Positions 1 through 9,280 of a DNA stretch of 33,346 nt are shown here, one piece after another. Under the pieces are notes generated by a model, which searched no databases, was not told the origin of the DNA, and saw only the letters and a program-made list of their open reading frames with translations. The DNA is from Candidatus Bipolaricaulis sp. (GTDB taxonomy: Bacteria > Bipolaricaulota > Bipolaricaulia > UBA7950 > UBA9294). A program made the translations under genes and the position numbers. How positions within the stretch are numbered: the first letter of the stretch is position 1; each line of letters starts with the position of its first letter. The stretch is from the NCBI GenBank assembly GCA_028707055.1, contig JAQTVA010000004.1, positions 1 through 33,346 of the forward strand, read 5' to 3'.

Positions 1-2900
1 CGTCGCGCTTCGGAGCGACGCCGCCGAGGCCTGGATCCACAACCCCGACTCCCGGTTGTCCGCGATCGACGAACCGATCATCAACAGGGCCGATCGCTCG
101 ACGAGACGGACGCCGACGCCGTGGTTCTCGGAGATCAGCGTGTCATCAAGGAGCGCCGCCACCGACCGCGTGAGCGACAGCCCACCCAGTCCGTTCGCCG
201 CCACAAGGGTATCGAGCGCCATGAACGCCGTCTGGGCCACCGCCTCGATTCCCCAGCCCTGGTTGTCGCGGATCGTGCTCCCGCTGAACGATGCGGGGGA
301 GTTGTCGAGCACGACGCCGGACGCCGGATGCTCGGACACCGTGGAATCGAGCATCGTCACAGTCGCATTCGACGTGTGAATCGCCACGTCACCGTTCGCT
401 CGGATGGACGACCCCGCGGCGACAACCGCCGAGCTGTCGATGAGATCGAGCGCGTACGATGCGTTCCCGCTGACGGTGCTCGCGGACACCGTAATCTGCG
501 AGTTCGACGCCAGGATTCCGATTCCCTGGTTGCCGGAGAGCGCGCTGCCGACCAGCTCCAACGAAGCACGATCGAGTCGCACCCCGTCCGTGGGGTGACG
601 GCTGATCGTCGTGTCGTCGAAGGCGACGGTCGACAGAACCGCGGTGACCCCAGGCCCTTGGTTGTCCTCGATTCGCGAACTGCGCACGTCGGCGCGGGAG
701 TCGGCGAGGTCAAGCGCGGCCGCTCCGTGCTGGCGAATCGTCGTCCCGGAGATGGCAATCGTGCCGCCCACCGCGGCGATGGCTCGTGCGCTGTTCTCGT
801 AGACCTCGCAATCCTGCAGATCGATCGAGCTTTGGTCCAGGACGATCGCGTCGCTCGGGTGCCGTGTCACCGAGCTGCCGACCAATGTGACCCGGGACTT
901 CTCCGCCGCGTCCACGGCTGAATCCCCGTTCCCCGAGAACAGGCACGTCGACGCCGTGATGGATGTGGCCGCCACGTGGAGGGCGTCGCCCCGGTTCTCG
1001 GTGATCGTGCATCCTTGAAGCGTGCCCTTCGACGCCTGAGCCTGCACAGCGTCGCCGCCGTTGCTCTCGATCGCCGAGTCGCGCAGCTTGGCGGAGCTGT
1101 CGACGAGGACGACGGCGTCGTCCGTGTGTCCCGAGACGACGCTTCCCGCCGAGAGGTTGACGATCCCCTGCTCGGCGACGATCCCATTCGCTCCGTTCCC
1201 CTCCAACTCGCTGCCGCTCGCATCCACGGCGGAGTCGACCACTCGAACCCCGCCGGCGCCGTTCCCCGCAACCCGTGACGAGCCGAATTGACACGTTGTG
1301 CCGTCGCTTCCCTCGACTCCCCAGCCACGGTTTGCCTGGACCTCGCTCTCGATCGCTTCGGCGTCCGTCCTCACGAGAGTCATCCCGTTCCCGGGATGAC
1401 CGGAGATCACCGTCGCGTCGAGGAGCACCTTTCCCCCCGTCGATTCGATCCCGACGGTTCCGTTGTCGCGGATCTTCGTGTCCACCGACTCCACCGAACT
1501 CGAGTCCAGAGAAACCCCCGCTGCGCCGTTTCTGGCGACCGAGCACGCCGCCAGCTTCACCTCGCTGTTGGCAATCGCCGTCACCCCACATCGACGGTTG
1601 TCCTCGATCTTCGAGAGCTCGACGTCGGCCTTGCTCCCCTGCAGTCGCATGCCGTCCTGGGGGTGGGCGGTGATCTCCGAGTTCCCGACCTGCAAGCTCG
1701 TCCCCACGGCCTCGACTCCGTATCCGGTGTTCGCCGTGATCGTGCTTCCCTTGACTTCGGCGAATGCGCCGCTCAGAACGACCCCGCTGGCGGCATTCCC
1801 TTGGATGGCACTGCCGTCGGCGACGCGAAGAACGCAGTGGTCCCCGCGCACGCCTTCCTTCTGGTTGGCTTCCACGCGGCTCGCGCGAACATCGGCCGTG
1901 GAGTCGAGAAGACGGACTCCGCCTTCCGGGTGTCCGGAGACGCGGGTGCCAACGAGGGTCACGCGCGACCGTGCCTTGGCGTCGATTCCGCTCTTCCCGT
2001 TGGTGGCAACCGCCCCGCCCTCGATCCGAACCTGAGCGAAGTCGAGGCTCGCCCCGCCTTCCGCGTTGTTCTCCATCGTGCTGTTCTGGAACTCCGCGCC
2101 CGACGACGTCGCATGCAGACCCAACCCGCCGTTCTTCGATACGTCCAATCCCACGGCGTGAAGAGATGCCTTCGCGAGGAGGATCCCGTGCGACGCATTG
2201 GCGCGGATGGCTCCGCCTTCCGAGGAGGCCACGGAGTGCAACGCGCGCAGCCCCACGCCTCCGCTCCGCTCGATCGTCGTGCCCTCGAAGCCGGCCGCCG
2301 CGTTCTGCAGCACGACTCCGTCCTTCGGATGGTCCGCGACGAGGCAATCTACGAGCGAAGCCGTCGAATCCACGGCGTAGAGACCTTCCTCACGGTTCTC
2401 GATGACCTCCGAGCCGGTGAGGTCGGCGGTCGAGTTGATGAGATCGACGCCTCGCCGGGCGTTGCCGGCCACCTGCGTCGTCGCGAGGACGATCGTGGAC
2501 ACCATGCCGGCGATTCCGTGGCCGCCGCTCGTCAGGATTTCGCAGTCGAGGAAGTCCCCCGAGCTGTTGGCCAGGCGCACACCGTCATCCGGATGTTCGG
2601 CGACCGTCGTTTCGGTCGCGGTCACGCTGGAGTTGCTGTGCCCGTGAATGCCGTGGATGCCGTTCGTGCGGATCTCCGACCTCAGGATGTCGGCCAGCGC
2701 GTGCTCGAGGAGCACGCCGTTCTGCGTGTTGTCGTGCACGCGGCTGTCCGCGAGCGCCAGTCGCGAGCCAATCTCGAACACACCCTCAAGGCGGTTGTGC
2801 GAGACGTCCGTCGTCGAGACCTGTCCGGAGCTTCGCTCCATGCGGATTCCGTGCTGCGGATGCTCCAAGATCGCCGATCCCGAGACTCGGGCCTCGGCGT
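1..2900 (-). repeat. Four-coil (about 267 bp) super-repeat within the beta-helix gene
   Basis: Besides the basic coil of about 67-69 bp, a variant coil with His-Pro in place of the usual Asn recurs at a nearly fixed interval. The His codons lie at plus-strand positions 328, 595, 859, 1126 (His-Thr here), 1396, 1663, 1930, 2329, 2593 and 2860. Intervals are 264, 267 or 270 bp, that is 88-90 residues or four coils. The exception is 1930 to 2329, which is 399 bp (six coils). Upstream of 2900 only one further HP coil (near 3880) was found. The period suggests growth by duplication of a four-coil unit, with later divergence at the sequence level. Confidence 0.7.
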
Positions 2901-4722
2901 CGACAAGCGAAATGCCGTTCTCCCCATTCGCGCGGACCGTGCTGTCCGCGACATCGACGAAGCTCTGCTCGGCGAGAACCCCGTTGGCTGCGTTCTCGAG
3001 GATCTCCGACGCGCTGCCGACGTACAAGGTCGACTCGTCCAGCGCGTACAGACCCTGTTTCCGGTTGCCTTGAACGAGGCTTGTCTCGACGGTCCCCGCC
3101 GAAGCACTGAGAAGAACTCCGTGCTCCGCGTTGCCGACAATCGCCGAGTGGTCCGTCACCGTCACGGTCGAGGCCGATCGCGCGTGCACCCCGTTCGCGC
3201 CGTTGCTCTCCACGCGGCTCGTCGAGATGTCGACGCGTGACGCCTCCGCCAACACGCCGTCGGCGACGTTCCCCGTCACCGTGGTCGCGGCAAGGCTTCC
3301 CTCCGCGCCTGTGGCCGCGCTGACGCCGTGGCGCTCATTCGAACGCACCTCGGACCCACGGAGCGCTCCCACCGCCGACTCGATCCGAACTCCATCCACC
3401 CCGTTGGCCGACACGACGCAACCCTGACGGACCTCGCCGCGCCCGCTTCCGTAGACGTAGACTCCATAGCGGACGTTGGCGCGAACGGTGCCTCCGGCGA
3501 TCGCACCGGACGACGCATCCACGGTGACCCCGTCCAATCCGTTCTCGGAGAGGGTGGAGTCGACCACCTCGCACGATCCGCTCCCCTCGACGAGGATGCC
3601 CGAGAGCCCGTTCTCCGAGATCGTTGAGGACGCCACGTAGGCGCTCCCGTAGTGGACGCGGAGGCCCTGCCCCGCGTTCTTGGATACCTTCGAGCTTGAC
3701 ACCGATGCGGCGGACGACGTCGTGACCGAGATCCCATCGCTCCCCTGGTCGGTCACGGACGTGCTCGTGACCGTCACATCGCTCCCCTCCGAGACGAGGA
3801 TGCCGAACCCGGCGTTGCCCACGACCGTGCTCGCCGAGATGCTGCCCGTGGAGCGGACGTACATCACCGCGGCGTCAGGATGCCCGCTGATCGTCGCGCC
3901 GTCCACGTGGACGGCGGCGTCCTCTCCGCGCACGCCGACGCCCCGGTTGTCGACGACCTCCGCCCCTCCACGCAGCGTGAAGGTGGCCCCAGAGACGAAG
4001 ACACCGCCCGAACCGTTCCCCGAGATCCGCGTCGGGGCTCCCCCGTCGGCGAATCGAACGGTCGACTCCCCATCGACGACGATCCCATACCCCTCGTTGG
4101 ATGTGAACTCGCACGCAGCGATGTCGGCCGAGCCGGAGTGAATGACGATCCCGCCGGCATTTCGACTCACGACGCAGGATGTCATCGCCAGCTTCGCACT
4201 CGTTCCGATCCCGCCACCCAACTCGACACCCCATCCCCCGTTGTCGACGATCTCGCAGCCCGACAGCGTGAACCCGCCTCCCCGCAGCCCCGCTTCGCTG
4301 TTTCCCTGGATGACACACCCGTCGAGGGTGACCGTCGACGTCGCGTCGAGCTCGATGGCCACAGATCCGCCCTGCAGGGTGAGGTCTTGGATCACGATGC
4401 CGGTGCAGTTCTCGAACCGCAAGACCGGGAGCGTCGCATCTCGCCCGGAAATGACGATCGCGCGCTGCTCGTCCGGGGAGGCGAACACGGTGACATTCTG
4501 CTTGTCCCTCACAACGACCGTCTCGCGGATCGGGCGGGTGATCTCGATCTTGCCCCCCTTCGAGACCTGCCGAAACGCCGCCGACAGCGAGGGCGTGGTG
4601 TCGGGAACCAGGATCCTCCCACGATTCTCAAAGTCCGTGGGCTGTCCTACCCCCATCAGGCACGCGATGATGACCGATCCCAGGGCCAAACCCAGGACAC
4701 TCCTTCGGGATGACCAACGCAT
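1..4722 (-). CDS. Giant secreted right-handed beta-helix repeat protein (3' end outside window)
   Basis: I checked every codon of this minus-strand frame from the ATG at 4722 to the left edge: 1574 codons with no stop, so the C-terminus lies outside the window. A strong GGAGGAGG ribosome site lies just upstream of the ATG. Residues 1 to about 25 form a signal peptide (RR, then a hydrophobic stretch). IIAC at 18-21 fits a lipobox, so it could be a lipoprotein, but cleavage after MGVG is equally possible. After an N-terminal segment (about 30-110) the whole chain is coils of 22-24 residues of the form S-x-[IV]-x-x-N-x-G-x-G-[VI] followed by alternating hydrophobic residues, the pattern of pectate-lyase-like or NosD-like parallel beta-helices with an Asn ladder. 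About 65 coils are visible. In the C-terminal two thirds every fourth coil carries HP instead of N. Such proteins are cell-surface or secreted adhesins or polysaccharide-active enzymes. No catalytic motif was recognised, so function is unknown. Confidence 0.9.
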   Translation of the reverse strand, partial: MRWSSRRSVLGLALGSVIIACLMGVGQPTDFENRGRILVPDTTPSLSAAFRQVSKGGKIEITRPIRETVVVRDKQNVTVFASPDEQRAIVISGRDATLPVLRFENCTGIVIQDLTLQGGSVAIELDATSTVTLDGCVIQGNSEAGLRGGGFTLSGCEIVDNGGWGVELGGGIGTSAKLAMTSCVVSRNAGGIVIHSGSADIAACEFTSNEGYGIVVDGESTVRFADGGAPTRISGNGSGGVFVSGATFTLRGGAEVVDNRGVGVRGEDAAVHVDGATISGHPDAAVMYVRSTGSISASTVVGNAGFGILVSEGSDVTVTSTSVTDQGSDGISVTTSSAASVSSSKVSKNAGQGLRVHYGSAYVASSTISENGLSGILVEGSGSCEVVDSTLSENGLDGVTVDASSGAIAGGTVRANVRYGVYVYGSGRGEVRQGCVVSANGVDGVRIESAVGALRGSEVRSNERHGVSAATGAEGSLAATTVTGNVADGVLAEASRVDISTSRVESNGANGVHARSASTVTVTDHSAIVGNAEHGVLLSASAGTVETSLVQGNRKQGLYALDESTLYVGSASEILENAANGVLAEQSFVDVADSTVRANGENGISLVDAEARVSGSAILEHPQHGIRMERSSGQVSTTDVSHNRLEGVFEIGSRLALADSRVHDNTQNGVLLEHALADILRSEIRTNGIHGIHGHSNSSVTATETTVAEHPDDGVRLANSSGDFLDCEILTSGGHGIAGMVSTIVLATTQVAGNARRGVDLINSTADLTGSEVIENREEGLYAVDSTASLVDCLVADHPKDGVVLQNAAAGFEGTTIERSGGVGLRALHSVASSEGGAIRANASHGILLAKASLHAVGLDVSKNGGLGLHATSSGAEFQNSTMENNAEGGASLDFAQVRIEGGAVATNGKSGIDAKARSRVTLVGTRVSGHPEGGVRLLDSTADVRASRVEANQKEGVRGDHCVLRVADGSAIQGNAASGVVLSGAFAEVKGSTITANTGYGVEAVGTSLQVGNSEITAHPQDGMRLQGSKADVELSKIEDNRRCGVTAIANSEVKLAACSVARNGAAGVSLDSSSVESVDTKIRDNGTVGIESTGGKVLLDATVISGHPGNGMTLVRTDAEAIESEVQANRGWGVEGSDGTTCQFGSSRVAGNGAGGVRVVDSAVDASGSELEGNGANGIVAEQGIVNLSAGSVVSGHTDDAVVLVDSSAKLRDSAIESNGGDAVQAQASKGTLQGCTITENRGDALHVAATSITASTCLFSGNGDSAVDAAEKSRVTLVGSSVTRHPSDAIVLDQSSIDLQDCEVYENSARAIAAVGGTIAISGTTIRQHGAAALDLADSRADVRSSRIEDNQGPGVTAVLSTVAFDDTTISRHPTDGVRLDRASLELVGSALSGNQGIGILASNSQITVSASTVSGNASYALDLIDSSAVVAAGSSIRANGDVAIHTSNATVTMLDSTVSEHPASGVVLDNSPASFSGSTIRDNQGWGIEAVAQTAFMALDTLVAANGLGGLSLTRSVAALLDDTLISENHGVGVRLVERSALLMIGSSIADNRESGLWIQASAASLRSAT

Positions 4723-4868: not shown

Positions 4869-4897
4869 TTGGCCGTCCCACAACCGAGGGGTATCCT
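4869..4897 (+). promoter_or_regulatory. Promoter of the tolC-macAB-like operon
   Basis: TTGGCC at 4869-4874 and TATCCT at 4892-4897 are separated by exactly 17 bases. Transcription would start near 4904, leaving a leader of about 43 bases before the GTG at 4947. The TTG that could start a longer reading frame at 4869 is thus the -35 box. Seen by eye only, not tested. Confidence 0.5.
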
Positions 4898-4946
4898 CTC
4901 GCCCGGAATGTTTGGATATGCCGGAAACACGCAGGAGGTGTCCCAG

Positions 4947-6338
4947 GTGCTGGTCCTACGCGTAGGCCATCGGGCGACGCTGGTTCTCTTGCTCCTTCTC
5001 ATCGTGCTCACGGTACCCGGAATGGCGTCCGCCGGGCAATCACGCGAGATCTCTCCGTCGGAGGCCATCGAGCGGGCCGTCGAGAACGACTTCGGACTTT
5101 GTCAGGCGAGGCTCGGCCTAAGTCTCGCCGTTCTCGAGCTTCGCGCCGCCAAGCTCTCCCTGTACCTTCCAACCGTCGGGTTCGCGCTCGACCTTCCCGA
5201 CCTCACGAACAACGGTCCCGGACAGGAGATCGGTGCTTCCCTCACGGCGTCGATCCCTGTCCCGTGGGGAAGCGGAAGTGTGACCGGGGGCGTCGGCTTC
5301 AGCTACAACGCGTCGACGTCCGAGCTTGTCGCACCGACGTGGAACGTGTCCCTCTCGGAGATCCTCGACCTTGCCCATCTCGACGGCCGCTCGGAGACGA
5401 TCCATACGCTCCAGCAGACGCTGGAGAGTGCCGAGCGATCCTACCGGACGGCCCATGCCGATCTTGTGATCTCAACGATTCGGACCTACGGAGACCTGCT
5501 CTCCGAAGCGCAGCAGGCAGAGCAGGACCTCCAGACGGTGGATCGCCTCACGACACGGCTCGGCCAGATCGAGGAGCTCGCCGCCCAGGGATACAAGGGC
5601 GAGTTGGACGTGAATGAGGCAAGACTCCTTGTGCTCGAGGCGGAGGTGCGAGCGGAGAAGAGCGCCGCCGTGTACGCGACCGACCTCGAAGCGTTCGGCC
5701 GGGAGACCCTCGGCGTCGAAGAGCCGTATCGCCTTTCGCCGTTCACCCTTTCGACGGGCGATCTCGTATTGTCCGCACGTGCCCTCCTCGCGGCGGAGAT
5801 CCCCACGAGTGCGATCTCCGACTCCTCGACGGTGATCGCTGCCCAACAGGGTGTAGCCGACGCCGAGGACGCCCTGCGGGAGGCGCGTGTCGGCGTGTTG
5901 CCGTCTTTGTCCGTCGAGGCCGCCGTAAGCGCCGACGAGTGGCGCGTGGGCCTCGGCCTGTCGCTCGACCTGTTCGACCCCGAGCGCGGCGCCGAGATCG
6001 AGATCGCGAAGATCGATCTCGAACTGGCGCAGGAGAAGCTGGGCTCGGCACGTGAGACGGTCCGCAACGCGATCCTCAGTCTGAAGTCTTCTCTCCTCTC
6101 AGCCGTCCGGAGTGCGGAGAGCCTGACGCTCGAGACCGAGGCGTGGCAGCTCGAAGAGCAGGTCAAGTCCGCGAAGCGCGACGCCGGCAGTCTCTCTGAC
6201 AGCGACTGGGCTGAGTTCCTCGAGGAGAAGGGCGCATTCGGGATCGAGGCGGCGAGCCGCTCGACCTCGCTCCTCGTCGCACACCTCGCGTATCGCAACG
6301 CCTTGGGAATGGAGCTGGATTGGGAGGAATGGCTGTGA
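4947..6338 (+). CDS. TolC-like outer membrane efflux channel
   Basis: A 463-residue protein of the outer membrane efflux protein family, which forms trimeric channel-tunnels for tripartite export. I chose the GTG at 4947 because AGGAGG (4933-4938) sits 8 bases upstream and a clean signal peptide follows (hydrophobic LVLLLLLIVLTV, cleavage after MASA at about residue 26). The in-frame TTG at 4869 would put extra residues before the signal peptide and coincides with the -35 box. The body shows the two alpha-helical halves typical of the family: long amphipathic, Glu/Ala/Leu-rich coiled coils separated by shorter beta-strand segments, for example the stretch with SVEAAVSADEWRVGLGLSLD. First gene of the exporter operon; its TGA overlaps the next start. 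Length is normal for the family. Confidence 0.85.
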   Translation: MLVLRVGHRATLVLLLLLIVLTVPGMASAGQSREISPSEAIERAVENDFGLCQARLGLSLAVLELRAAKLSLYLPTVGFALDLPDLTNNGPGQEIGASLTASIPVPWGSGSVTGGVGFSYNASTSELVAPTWNVSLSEILDLAHLDGRSETIHTLQQTLESAERSYRTAHADLVISTIRTYGDLLSEAQQAEQDLQTVDRLTTRLGQIEELAAQGYKGELDVNEARLLVLEAEVRAEKSAAVYATDLEAFGRETLGVEEPYRLSPFTLSTGDLVLSARALLAAEIPTSAISDSSTVIAAQQGVADAEDALREARVGVLPSLSVEAAVSADEWRVGLGLSLDLFDPERGAEIEIAKIDLELAQEKLGSARETVRNAILSLKSSLLSAVRSAESLTLETEAWQLEEQVKSAKRDAGSLSDSDWAEFLEEKGAFGIEAASRSTSLLVAHLAYRNALGMELDWEEWL

Positions 6339-7375
6339 AGATGAAACGAAGAACCTGGAGGATCATGGCCGGGGTCGGGTTGGGGGTCGTGGCGGGAGCG
6401 ATCGCCCTCGTGCTGCTGCTCAACCGCTTCGGCAAGGACGAAGCCGCGGTCGCCGTTCCGACGTTTGAGGTTCAGCGAGGCGACGTCACGAACAGCCTCG
6501 TCGTCTACGGGACCGTCCAGCCGAACCAGGAGTACACCTTCACGTTCGACGGGGATCGAGTCGACTCGCTCCTCGTGAGCGTCGGGGAGCGCGTGACCGA
6601 GGGACAGGCGCTGGTCAAGCTCGATCCGTCTCAGCAGGAACTGGCGCTCCTCCAGGCCGAACGAGCCCTCGCCGAGGCCAAAGCCGGCGGCGTCCGCGCC
6701 GAGATGAAGGAGAAGGAACTCGCCCTGAGGATCGCACAGGCCAACTACGACAGCGCGACGCTCGCGGCCCCCTTTGCCGGCGTCGTGACAGAGATCAACC
6801 AGGCGGCGGGCTCCAACGAGCTCTGGACGCTTCTTCTGATCGACACGAGCGCGCTGTACCTCGAGGTTGAGATCGACCAACTGGACGCCCCCTCCGTCGC
6901 CGTGGGTCAACCCGCGACCGCGGTCATCGAACCGCTTCCCACCAAGACGTGGGACGTCGAGATCACCGAGATCGCCGGCATGGCCGAGGAGTTGGGCAAC
7001 AGCACGGTCGTCATCGCGAAGGCGAGCTTCCCGTACGCCGATCCGCGCGTTCTCGTCGGATACACGGTGGAGATGGAGATCATCACGTCGTCCGCAACGA
7101 ATGTGCTCATCGCGCCGCTCTCGTACCTCACCGAGACGCCGCGGGGGTGGATCGTGACGAAAGTCGTCGACGGGCAGCCGCAGCCGCAGGCCGTGACCGT
7201 CGGCGTGACGTCCGACACGGTTGCGGAGATCACGAACGGCCTCCAGGAGGGCGATGTGCTTCGGAGCGCCGCGAGGTCCGGGGCGGCCGGCCCGACGAAG
7301 ACCCAGGAGAGCGGTCAGAACCCCGGCAGCGGAGTGCCGATGATGGTCCAGTTCAACGGGCCCGGGATGCCGTAA
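6335..7375 (+). CDS. HlyD/MacA-type periplasmic adaptor (membrane fusion protein)
   Basis: A 346-residue adaptor that would link the inner-membrane MacB-type transporter to the TolC-like channel. I chose the GTG at 6335 because GTGA overlaps the stop of the preceding gene by four bases and GGAGG (6323-6327) lies 7 bases upstream. ATG 6329 is too close to that site and ATG 6341 is a less well-spaced alternative. One N-terminal membrane helix (about residues 8-30) is followed by the split biotinyl-lipoyl half, a helical hairpin rich in Ala/Glu/Leu (about 95-140), the second lipoyl half around LAAPFAGVVTEI, then beta-barrel and membrane-proximal domains. The hairpin is short for a MacA (roughly 20 residues per helix), so contact with the channel may differ from that in E. 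coli. The C-terminal tail is Gly/Pro-rich. Confidence 0.85.
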   Translation: MKMKRRTWRIMAGVGLGVVAGAIALVLLLNRFGKDEAAVAVPTFEVQRGDVTNSLVVYGTVQPNQEYTFTFDGDRVDSLLVSVGERVTEGQALVKLDPSQQELALLQAERALAEAKAGGVRAEMKEKELALRIAQANYDSATLAAPFAGVVTEINQAAGSNELWTLLLIDTSALYLEVEIDQLDAPSVAVGQPATAVIEPLPTKTWDVEITEIAGMAEELGNSTVVIAKASFPYADPRVLVGYTVEMEIITSSATNVLIAPLSYLTETPRGWIVTKVVDGQPQPQAVTVGVTSDTVAEITNGLQEGDVLRSAARSGAAGPTKTQESGQNPGSGVPMMVQFNGPGMP

Positions 7376-7380
7376 CCGCC

Positions 7381-8064
7381 ATGATCGAACTCAAGAACGT
7401 CACCAAGGACTATCCGATGGGGGAACTCGTCTACCACGCGCTGCGCGGGGTCACCTTCGACATCCGTGAGCATGAGTTCGCCGCGATCACCGGGCACTCC
7501 GGATCGGGGAAGTCGACCCTCCTGCACATCCTCGGGGCTCTGCACCGCCCGACCTCGGGGGACGCGCTGTTCGACGGGGAGAACCTCGGAGCGATGTCGC
7601 GCGAGGCGCTCGCGAAGATCCGGAACGAGAAGATCGGTTTCATCTTCCAGCAGTTCTTCCTTCTCCCGCGGGCGACGGCCCAAGCGAACGTCGAGCTGCC
7701 CCTCGCCTACGCCGGCGTCCCGAGAAGAAAGCGGGCGGAGATTGCGCGTGCCTGCCTCGAACGCGTAGGTCTCACCGACCATGCCCACCATCGCCCGACG
7801 CAGCTGTCGGGAGGGCAGTCCCAGCGGGTGGCGATCGCTCGCGGCCTCGCGAACTCGCCTCGCTTGATCCTCGGAGACGAGCCGACAGGAAACCTCGACA
7901 GCCACACGACAAGCGAGATCATGGCCTTCTTCCACTCCCTTCACGACGAAGGGCGGACGATCGTCCTCGTCACCCACGAACAGGAGATCGCGCAGGTCAC
8001 GAAGCGCGAGATCGTCCTCAAGGACGGGCTCATCGCGGAGGACAACCACAATGGGACTTCATGA
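7381..8064 (+). CDS. MacB/LolD-type ABC transporter ATPase
   Basis: A 227-residue nucleotide-binding subunit with all ABC motifs: Walker [10 protein letters not shown] (38-46), Q-loop in [11 protein letters not shown], signature [14 protein letters not shown], Walker [13 protein letters not shown], and the switch His in VTHEQE. The motif set and the start [14 protein letters not shown] are typical of the MacB/LolD/FtsE group, which energises FtsX-like permeases from the cytoplasm. The ATG at 7381 lies 5 bases after the adaptor stop and has no good ribosome site of its own, so translation is probably coupled. The gene ends inside the permease gene (14-base overlap). In E. coli MacB the ATPase and permease are one chain; here they are two. 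Confidence 0.93.
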
Positions 8065-9280
8065 GATGTTGCGGACCGCTGTGACGGCGCTCCGCGCCCA
8101 CAAGATGCGAACCACGCTGTCCGTCCTGGGCATCGTGATCGGCGTCGCCGCGATCGTGGCGATCATCGCGATCGTCAACGGCGCTACGGCCTCAATGAAG
8201 GAGCAGATCTCCGGACTCGGAATGCGGACGATCAACGTGACGATCTTCCCGAACGCCATCTCTGCCGCCTCGTCGGCGCGGGCGCTCACGGACGAGTTGA
8301 CCGGTCGGTTCGAAGCCTTGCCGAGCGTCTCCAAGGCCGTGCCGACGTCGTCCTCCAACGCGCGGGCGATCATCGATGGGGAGGAGTACTCCGCTTCGAT
8401 CGCGGGTGTCGTGCCGGAGTACGCCGAGCTGTTCGACGGCTTCTACCCTACGAGCGGTCGATTCATCTACTCGATGGACGACAACCGGCGGGTCGTCGTT
8501 CTCGGCGCCGGGTTCGCCGAAGACTACTTCGCCGGCGAGGATCCGGTCGGCCGTCGCATCACGCTCGAGATCTCCAACCAGAAACTGGCATTCACGATCA
8601 TCGGCGTCATGAGCGCGCGCGGACGCGTCGGCATGCAGGACCTCGACGACACGATCTTCGTGCCTCTGTCCACGGTCCAGCTTCTATCCGGATCACGCCA
8701 GTTCACGTCGTACATCGCCCAGGCCGAGAGCGAGACCGTCGTCGACACCGCCGCGGAGGAGATCGAAGGGGTCCTCAAGGAGGTCATCTCAACCACCTCG
8801 ACCTCCGGATCGAGCAGTTGGCGCGGTCCCAGAACTCCCTACAACGTGTCGCTCCAGCAGCAGTTCATCGAGACGTACGAGTCCACCGTGGGGACCATGA
8901 CCCTCATCCTGGGTGGCGTGGCGGCGATCGCGCTCCTCGTCGGCGGGATTGGGATCATGAACATCATGCTTGTCTCGGTGACGGAGCGGACCCGAGAGAT
9001 CGGCATCCGCCTCGCCATTGGGGCGCGTCCACGCGACATCCGGACCCAATTCCTTGTGGAAGCTATCCTCACCAGCTCGCTCGGCGGACTGATCGGACTC
9101 GCCGCGGGGTGGCTGTGCGCCTGGCTCGGGTCGCTGCTTGGCGACTGGCCGTTCGTCATGTCCGTCTATCCGGCGCTCCTGGCGGTGGGGTTCTCGCTTC
9201 TGATCGGGGTCACTTTCGGCCTGTACCCGGCCGTTCGCGCGGCTCGGCTCGATCCAGTGGAAGCCTTACGGTACGAGTGA
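8051..9280 (+). CDS. MacB-type ABC transporter permease (FtsX family)
   Basis: A 409-residue inner membrane permease. The N-terminal LRTAVTALRAHKMRTTLSVLGIVIG and the first membrane helix (about 20-42) are diagnostic of the MacB_PCD plus FtsX architecture. A large periplasmic domain (about 45-280) is followed by three helices, starting with MTLILGGVAAIALLVGGIGIMNIMLVSV and the conserved TERTREIGIRLAIGA loop, ending in AARLDPVEALRYE. It would use mechanotransmission to drive periplasmic substrates into the TolC-like channel. Overlaps the ATPase gene by 14 bases. The substrate is not evident: macrolide, lipid, peptide and lipoprotein exporters share this fold. The remaining 152 bases to the next gene (convergent) hold small GC-rich inverted repeats but no convincing terminator. 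Confidence 0.92.
   Translation: MGLHEMLRTAVTALRAHKMRTTLSVLGIVIGVAAIVAIIAIVNGATASMKEQISGLGMRTINVTIFPNAISAASSARALTDELTGRFEALPSVSKAVPTSSSNARAIIDGEEYSASIAGVVPEYAELFDGFYPTSGRFIYSMDDNRRVVVLGAGFAEDYFAGEDPVGRRITLEISNQKLAFTIIGVMSARGRVGMQDLDDTIFVPLSTVQLLSGSRQFTSYIAQAESETVVDTAAEEIEGVLKEVISTTSTSGSSSWRGPRTPYNVSLQQQFIETYESTVGTMTLILGGVAAIALLVGGIGIMNIMLVSVTERTREIGIRLAIGARPRDIRTQFLVEAILTSSLGGLIGLAAGWLCAWLGSLLGDWPFVMSVYPALLAVGFSLLIGVTFGLYPAVRAARLDPVEALRYE

Follow-up and report, generated by a model that had tools for sequence, protein, structure and literature searches.

The window analysed here, an entire contig of 33,346 nucleotides from a 1.64-Mb draft genome of Candidatus Bipolaricaulis (214 contigs), encodes a giant right-handed β-helix protein in which one outer face, that of strand S3, is conserved along the ~43 C-terminal coils, a length of about 20 nm. 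The residues of this face differ from coil to coil, while each coil retains its own. Such a face, fixed coil by coil, suggests lengthwise packing in a precise register, and the presence of distinct conserved residues on each coil points to a non-uniform partner rather than to a uniform glycan or polymer. We favour, with somewhat less than even confidence, a model in which the protein is a Sec-exported rod that packs lengthwise through S3, in fixed register, on a non-uniform partner, and in which the His-Pro (HP) turns that first drew attention to the gene are not the binding face. The partner would most likely be another such rod or a different envelope protein, and the rods would contribute to a scaffold at the surface or in the periplasm.

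In long repeat proteins of bacterial surfaces, the number of repeats commonly changes and the surfaces drift. Here, about 40 coils keep a fixed register in different families of one phylum, with one face changed far less than the others. We consider this more remarkable than the HP series. The protein may thus lend itself to testing whether a partner reads the length of such a rod and the order of its residues, and it is a candidate envelope protein for a phylum with an unusual cell shape and an unresolved envelope type. Candidatus Bipolaricaulis carries bipolar prosthecae; it has not been settled whether a true outer membrane exists in the phylum, a simple diderm organization being possible, and the single closed genome described for the phylum contains no lipopolysaccharide genes (PMC6092417).

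The gene and its predicted structure

The coding sequence begins at window position 4722 on the minus strand and is cut off by the end of the contig at base 1 (Table 1). The 1574 codons present match the earlier note on this DNA, which had given the protein at least 1574 residues of β-helix. A search of the same genome for the missing 3′ part of the gene found nothing. Full-length orthologs stop ~90 residues past the last codon of the window, in coil-like sequence straight after the helix. No surface-anchoring domain was recognised, and the orthologs end soon after the last coil. The protein of the window contains 64 coils, the first at residue 134. These are β-helix coils as the note had stated; most of them measure 22 residues and a number of them 23. 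A helix of ~67 coils corresponds to a rod of about 30–32 nm, the usual β-helix rise being 4.8 Å per coil.

Table 1. Features of the β-helix gene in the window
Feature	Window positions	Strand	Remarks
β-helix CDS	1..4722	-	1574 codons present, 3′ end lost at contig end; Pfam Beta_helix PF13229 460 bits, 16 stretches
Signal-peptide-like segment, residues 1-30 (RRSVLGLALGSVIIACLMG)	4633..4722	-	Predicted from sequence
N-terminal capping region, residues 36-133 (RILVPDTTPSLSAAFRQV...)	4324..4617	-	Model pLDDT mostly 83-94
N-terminal coils 0-20, residues 134-613	2884..4323	-	Turns with Asn; HP series absent; outer face of S3 unconserved (20-22%)
C-terminal coils 21-63, residues 614-1574	1..2883	-	A and B coils alternate; H/Q barcode; outer face of S3 conserved; without indels in orthologs
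HP turn, residue 281, coil 6	3877..3882	-	Outside the series
HP turn, residue 621, coil 21	2857..2862	-	
HP turn, residue 710, coil 25	2590..2595	-	HP in 10/10 aligned sequences
HP turn, residue 798, coil 29	2326..2331	-	Gln in most orthologs
HP turn, residue 931, coil 35	1927..1932	-	His in all aligned sequences, Pro not
HP turn, residue 1020, coil 39	1660..1665	-	
HP turn, residue 1109, coil 43	1393..1398	-	
HT turn, residue 1199, coil 47	1123..1128	-	Member of the ten-site series
HP turn, residue 1288, coil 51	856..861	-	HP in every covering ortholog
HP turn, residue 1376, coil 55	592..597	-	HP in every covering ortholog
HP turn, residue 1465, coil 59	325..330	-	HP in every covering ortholog

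Two Pfam models match along the protein, PF13229 (right-handed β-helix region), whose score compares with a cut-off of 25.9 bits, and PF05048 (NosD), with 202 bits against a cut-off of 23.6; the latter model overlaps generic β-helix repeats. AlphaFold models were obtained for residues 600–1574 (pLDDT 96.6), which form continuous, regular three-strand coils, and for residues 1–640 (pLDDT 90.9), likewise continuous coils. Each modelled coil consists of the strands S1, S2 and S3, and the ladder turn sits between S1 and S2. The capping region passes into the helix unbroken, and a low-confidence helix was modelled at residues 10–22, inside the signal-peptide-like segment. Based on this N-terminus, the protein is predicted to be exported by the Sec pathway. 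The segment contains a lipobox-like IIAC (residues 18–21, window 4660–4671), which reads IVAC in the other species of the genus and is missing from the remaining orthologs; lipid anchoring may be specific to the genus.

The His-Pro turns form a barcode on a two-coil repeat

The earlier note had described a coil with HP in place of the ladder Asn that returns at ten sites every 264–270 bp, with one interval of 399 bp. These spacings were confirmed, with the correction that the regular ten-site series consists of nine HP turns and HT1199; it extends from residue 621 to residue 1465 (window 2862 to 330) at intervals of 89, 88, 133, 89, 89, 90, 89, 88 and 89 residues, and the nine HP turns without HT1199 would leave a gap of 179 residues. 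The tenth occurrence of the dipeptide, HP281 (window 3882), is an eleventh site that lies N-terminal of the series and outside it. It is the single HP in the N-terminal third, where it is accompanied by one Gln turn, in agreement with the statement that this part mostly lacks the HP coil. Exactly four coils make up eight of the nine intervals in the series, and six coils the remaining one. None of 200,000 random draws of ten sites among coils 21–63 gave eight of nine four-coil gaps, and with the draws confined to coils of the same parity such a result still had a P of only 1.6e-4. In the structural model, all HP sites of the series occupy the same six-residue turn, on one edge of the helix, so that the expected alignment of the HP loops is supported by the prediction.

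The self-identity of the C-terminal half peaked at lags of 356 (4 × 89) and 89 residues. When compared by coil lag, even lags were positive and odd lags mostly negative, as is characteristic of two alternating coil types. After removal of the two HP columns, lag 2 (z 6.0) exceeded lag 4 (z 3.8), indicating that the four-coil signal resides mainly in the turn residues and is laid on a two-coil repeat. The A coils have an Ala or Gly core and an Asn turn, and the B coils have a Leu core and an acidic outer residue: position 20, in S3, is acidic in 58% of B coils versus 2% of A coils. Every HP coil of the series is of the B type, and the A/B alternation is also present in the orthologs. Several 23-residue A coils of the helix protein, namely coils 24, 34, 40, 50 and 62 (residues 680–702, 901–923, 1035–1057, 1258–1280 and 1526–1548), have an extra residue ahead of S3 together with near-invariant motifs (NSSVT, RSRVT, NSEVK, KSRVT, RSALL).

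The ladder Asn is replaced by His or Gln only on selected B coils, at coil intervals of 4-4-6-4-4-4-4-2-2-4. The 89-residue period noted earlier is thus real, but the register is this barcode over a two-coil repeat and not a regular run of four-coil steps. The barcode is common to the orthologs of family f1, either whole or over the stretch covered by partial sequences, with two exceptions: one site is Asn in G016, and G021 has one additional site. More distant families show 4-4-4-6-2-2-4-4-4-2-2-4 and, with small variations, 4-4-4-4-6-2-6-4-4-2-2-4; counted from the last site, their barcodes coincide at most positions (0, 4, 6, 8, 12, 16, 24, 30, 34 and 38).

One outer face of the C-terminal coils is selectively conserved

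Inward and outward facing was assigned from the strand pattern and the alternation of residues. In the comparison of residues 600–1574 with six orthologs, the outward S3 positions 1 and 3 were 82% and 69% identical, the outward S1 and S2 positions 16–23% and the core 43–68%, so that the S3 outer residues are conserved at least as much as the hydrophobic core. An independent clade gave 88% and 75% for S3 against 21–30%, and the same pattern was found in ortholog pairs that leave out the protein of the window, as well as within the genus. When coils were paired by ordinal number with those of a distant ortholog (33% identical), idx18 matched in 68% of cases versus 11–24% at other offsets. The N-terminal 21 coils served as the internal control, and their S3 outer face was only 20–22% identical. 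Of two β-helix families considered as outside controls, L081–L084 did not resolve into coils with the coil profile, and the members of the sister family L085–L087 are so similar (82–83% identical) that the faces do not differ measurably.

In a comparison of the two species in the genus, 3 of 74 codons for outer S3 residues had changed (4%), as against 48 of 156 for the remaining outer residues (31%). Synonymous change was equal (38% and 39%), indicating that selection acts on the amino acids. This result bears on the possibility that the protein is a generic secreted β-helix whose repeat is a relic of duplication and whose S3 conservation stems from constraints of folding or export. The generic Pfam matches along the protein fit such an explanation, as does the recent four-coil duplication in the sister family described below. 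However, the N-terminal coils share the fold and the export route and lack the conservation, the S3 outer residues are kept no less well than the core, and the evidence of selection on amino acids likewise speaks against it. We regard it as rather improbable.

The earlier note had proposed that the regular line of HP turns is itself a binding or assembly face. The choice between His/Gln and Asn is indeed conserved at the ordinal coils, the turns are predicted to lie along one edge, and at coils 25, 51, 55 and 59 all aligned sequences that extend over the site read HP. These four are the only such coils, however: at most ladder sites, the orthologs read HP, HR, HG, HS, HA or Q-x, with His and Gln replacing each other and the proline frequently missing. 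Next to the ladder site, the turn residues vary almost as much as those of the ordinary surface, and it is S3, across the helix and opposite the edge that carries the HP turns, that forms the strongly conserved outer face. A role of the HP edge as the contact face is therefore very doubtful. In the model that we favour, the HP turns would be a trace of old duplications of four-coil cassettes and would probably adjust the turn ladder on the edge opposite S3.

Two further properties of the S3 face were assessed. A calculation of charge complementarity for an antiparallel pair of S3 faces gave no signal (P 0.47) and hence no support for self-association of the rods. An ice-binding face was rejected, as S3 is not a uniform array of Thr.

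The duplications are old and the length of the C-terminal part is fixed

The four-coil units within the helix gene are 26–29% identical, with 45% nucleotide identity. Orthologous units are more alike, at 33–64% identity across genera and families, indicating that the duplications are older than the family. Tandem Repeats Finder reported no array in the helix gene, because its units are too diverged. In the sister family L085–L087 (~1010 residues), we found six consecutive four-coil HP-N-N-N units of 88–95 residues each, three of which are 65–68% identical. Such fresh units make growth by four-coil cassettes credible. The suggestion that the register records how the gene grew is therefore plausible as regards the mechanism, but in this gene the units are old.

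Comparison of the homologs showed no variation in the number of units in the C-terminal part, where orthologs that are 42–48% identical have no internal indel of more than 2 residues across 975 residues. The number of coils in the whole protein varies from ~65 to 80, and it does so towards the N-terminus. The low nucleotide identity between units may prevent slippage.

Comparison with known β-helix proteins

The protein has a known right-handed β-helix fold, but its family is undescribed in the literature that we searched, in which no description of this helix protein was found. It resembles the PF13229/PF05048 proteins in its 22–23-residue coils with an Asn turn followed by a G-[IVL] strand, and differs from them in forming one unbroken rod of ~67 coils, built on a two-coil repeat, with an H/Q barcode and with an S3 face that is selectively conserved. 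No nos (nitrous-oxide reductase) genes were present among the neighbours scanned in the window and in the relatives. Foldseek also matched the passengers of the type V autotransporters Pertactin, Antigen 43 and Fap2, which are likewise long secreted right-handed β-helix rods; unlike these, the protein lacks a C-terminal β-barrel, since the full-length orthologs end just past the helix.

The only sequence-level match in the PDB (E 2.4e-6), which was also the best fold match, was the tail fibre gp15 of Staphylococcus phage Andhra (8egr). In contrast to the genes of phage tail fibres and tailspikes, the helix gene lies among ordinary bacterial genes (a MacB-like transporter, HypF and fatty-acid synthesis) and is found colinear in many of the phylum's cellular genomes. 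Based on this ordinary bacterial neighbourhood and the lack of a phage structural module in it, a phage origin of the gene was rejected.

β-Helix carbohydrate enzymes and phage tailspikes possess a long polymer-binding groove. By analogy, the S3 face could be a long groove for an extended polymer such as a polysaccharide, peptidoglycan or nucleic acid, on a rod that is either envelope-bound or secreted. The closest solved folds found with Foldseek include, besides tailspikes, the PL6 alginate lyases and the AlgE/AlgG epimerases, which share the right-handed parallel β-helix. The S3 residue of the B coils, on every second coil and acidic in 58% of them, would suit such a groove, as would a gene with SNase, PKD and lamin-tail domains (LTD) that follows the helix gene on the same strand in another branch of the relatives. 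However, a uniform repeating polymer would have no need of residues kept separately on each coil, and the alignments to PL6, AlgE and AlgG are poor (E 1e-5 to 1e-3, query-normalised TM-score mostly <0.25, 8–13% identity), so that these enzymes share only the type of fold. We consider a polymer groove unlikely, though less so than a generic helix.

Relatives and neighbouring genes

The named relatives are nearly all metagenome-assembled genomes of Candidatus Bipolaricaulota, one being labelled Atribacteria and one an uncultured bacterium; as judged from these sequences, the predicted rod is conserved within Bipolaricaulota. A gene for a PPC-LVIVD β-propeller protein lies downstream of the helix gene, convergent with it and adjoining it, in G002, G005, G013, G016, G019, G022, G029 and G087, and in G021 it is downstream with one gene between. 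By locus, this neighbour was found in all nine f1 and f5 relatives with an available downstream flank (L011, L012/L030, L013, L014, L015, L017, L020, L022 and L079), one gene separating the two in L013. LVIVD repeats occurred in 9 of 39 relatives, all of them helix-positive, and in none of 28 helix-negative ones (Fisher P 2.6e-7, a value that ignores kinship); in one of the nine, G032, they are located elsewhere in the genome. No LVIVD gene was found in the genome of the window, whose contig ends inside the helix gene. In the other branch (L018, L074, L076 and L077), the next gene downstream is the SNase-PKD-LTD gene mentioned above (L018:8423-9685). The upstream neighbours of the helix gene vary among the relatives.

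A possible, if still unlikely, extension of the favoured model is a scaffold specific to Bipolaricaulota, in which rods of ~30 nm would be held in exact register by their 20-nm coil-addressed face and would act together with the neighbouring β-propeller protein. As far as can be judged from its title, a system described in 2002 and cited in PMC2447325 is similar in the kinds of modules, here a β-helix with a PPC-LVIVD propeller or a PKD protein as its neighbour, and appears to differ in that the modules here reside in separate neighbouring genes.

On the other side of the helix gene and divergent from it, window positions 4869–9280 (plus strand) encode an outer-membrane efflux protein, an HlyD-type fusion protein, an ABC ATPase and a MacB-type permease. 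An efflux protein gene likewise adjoins the helix gene in G002.
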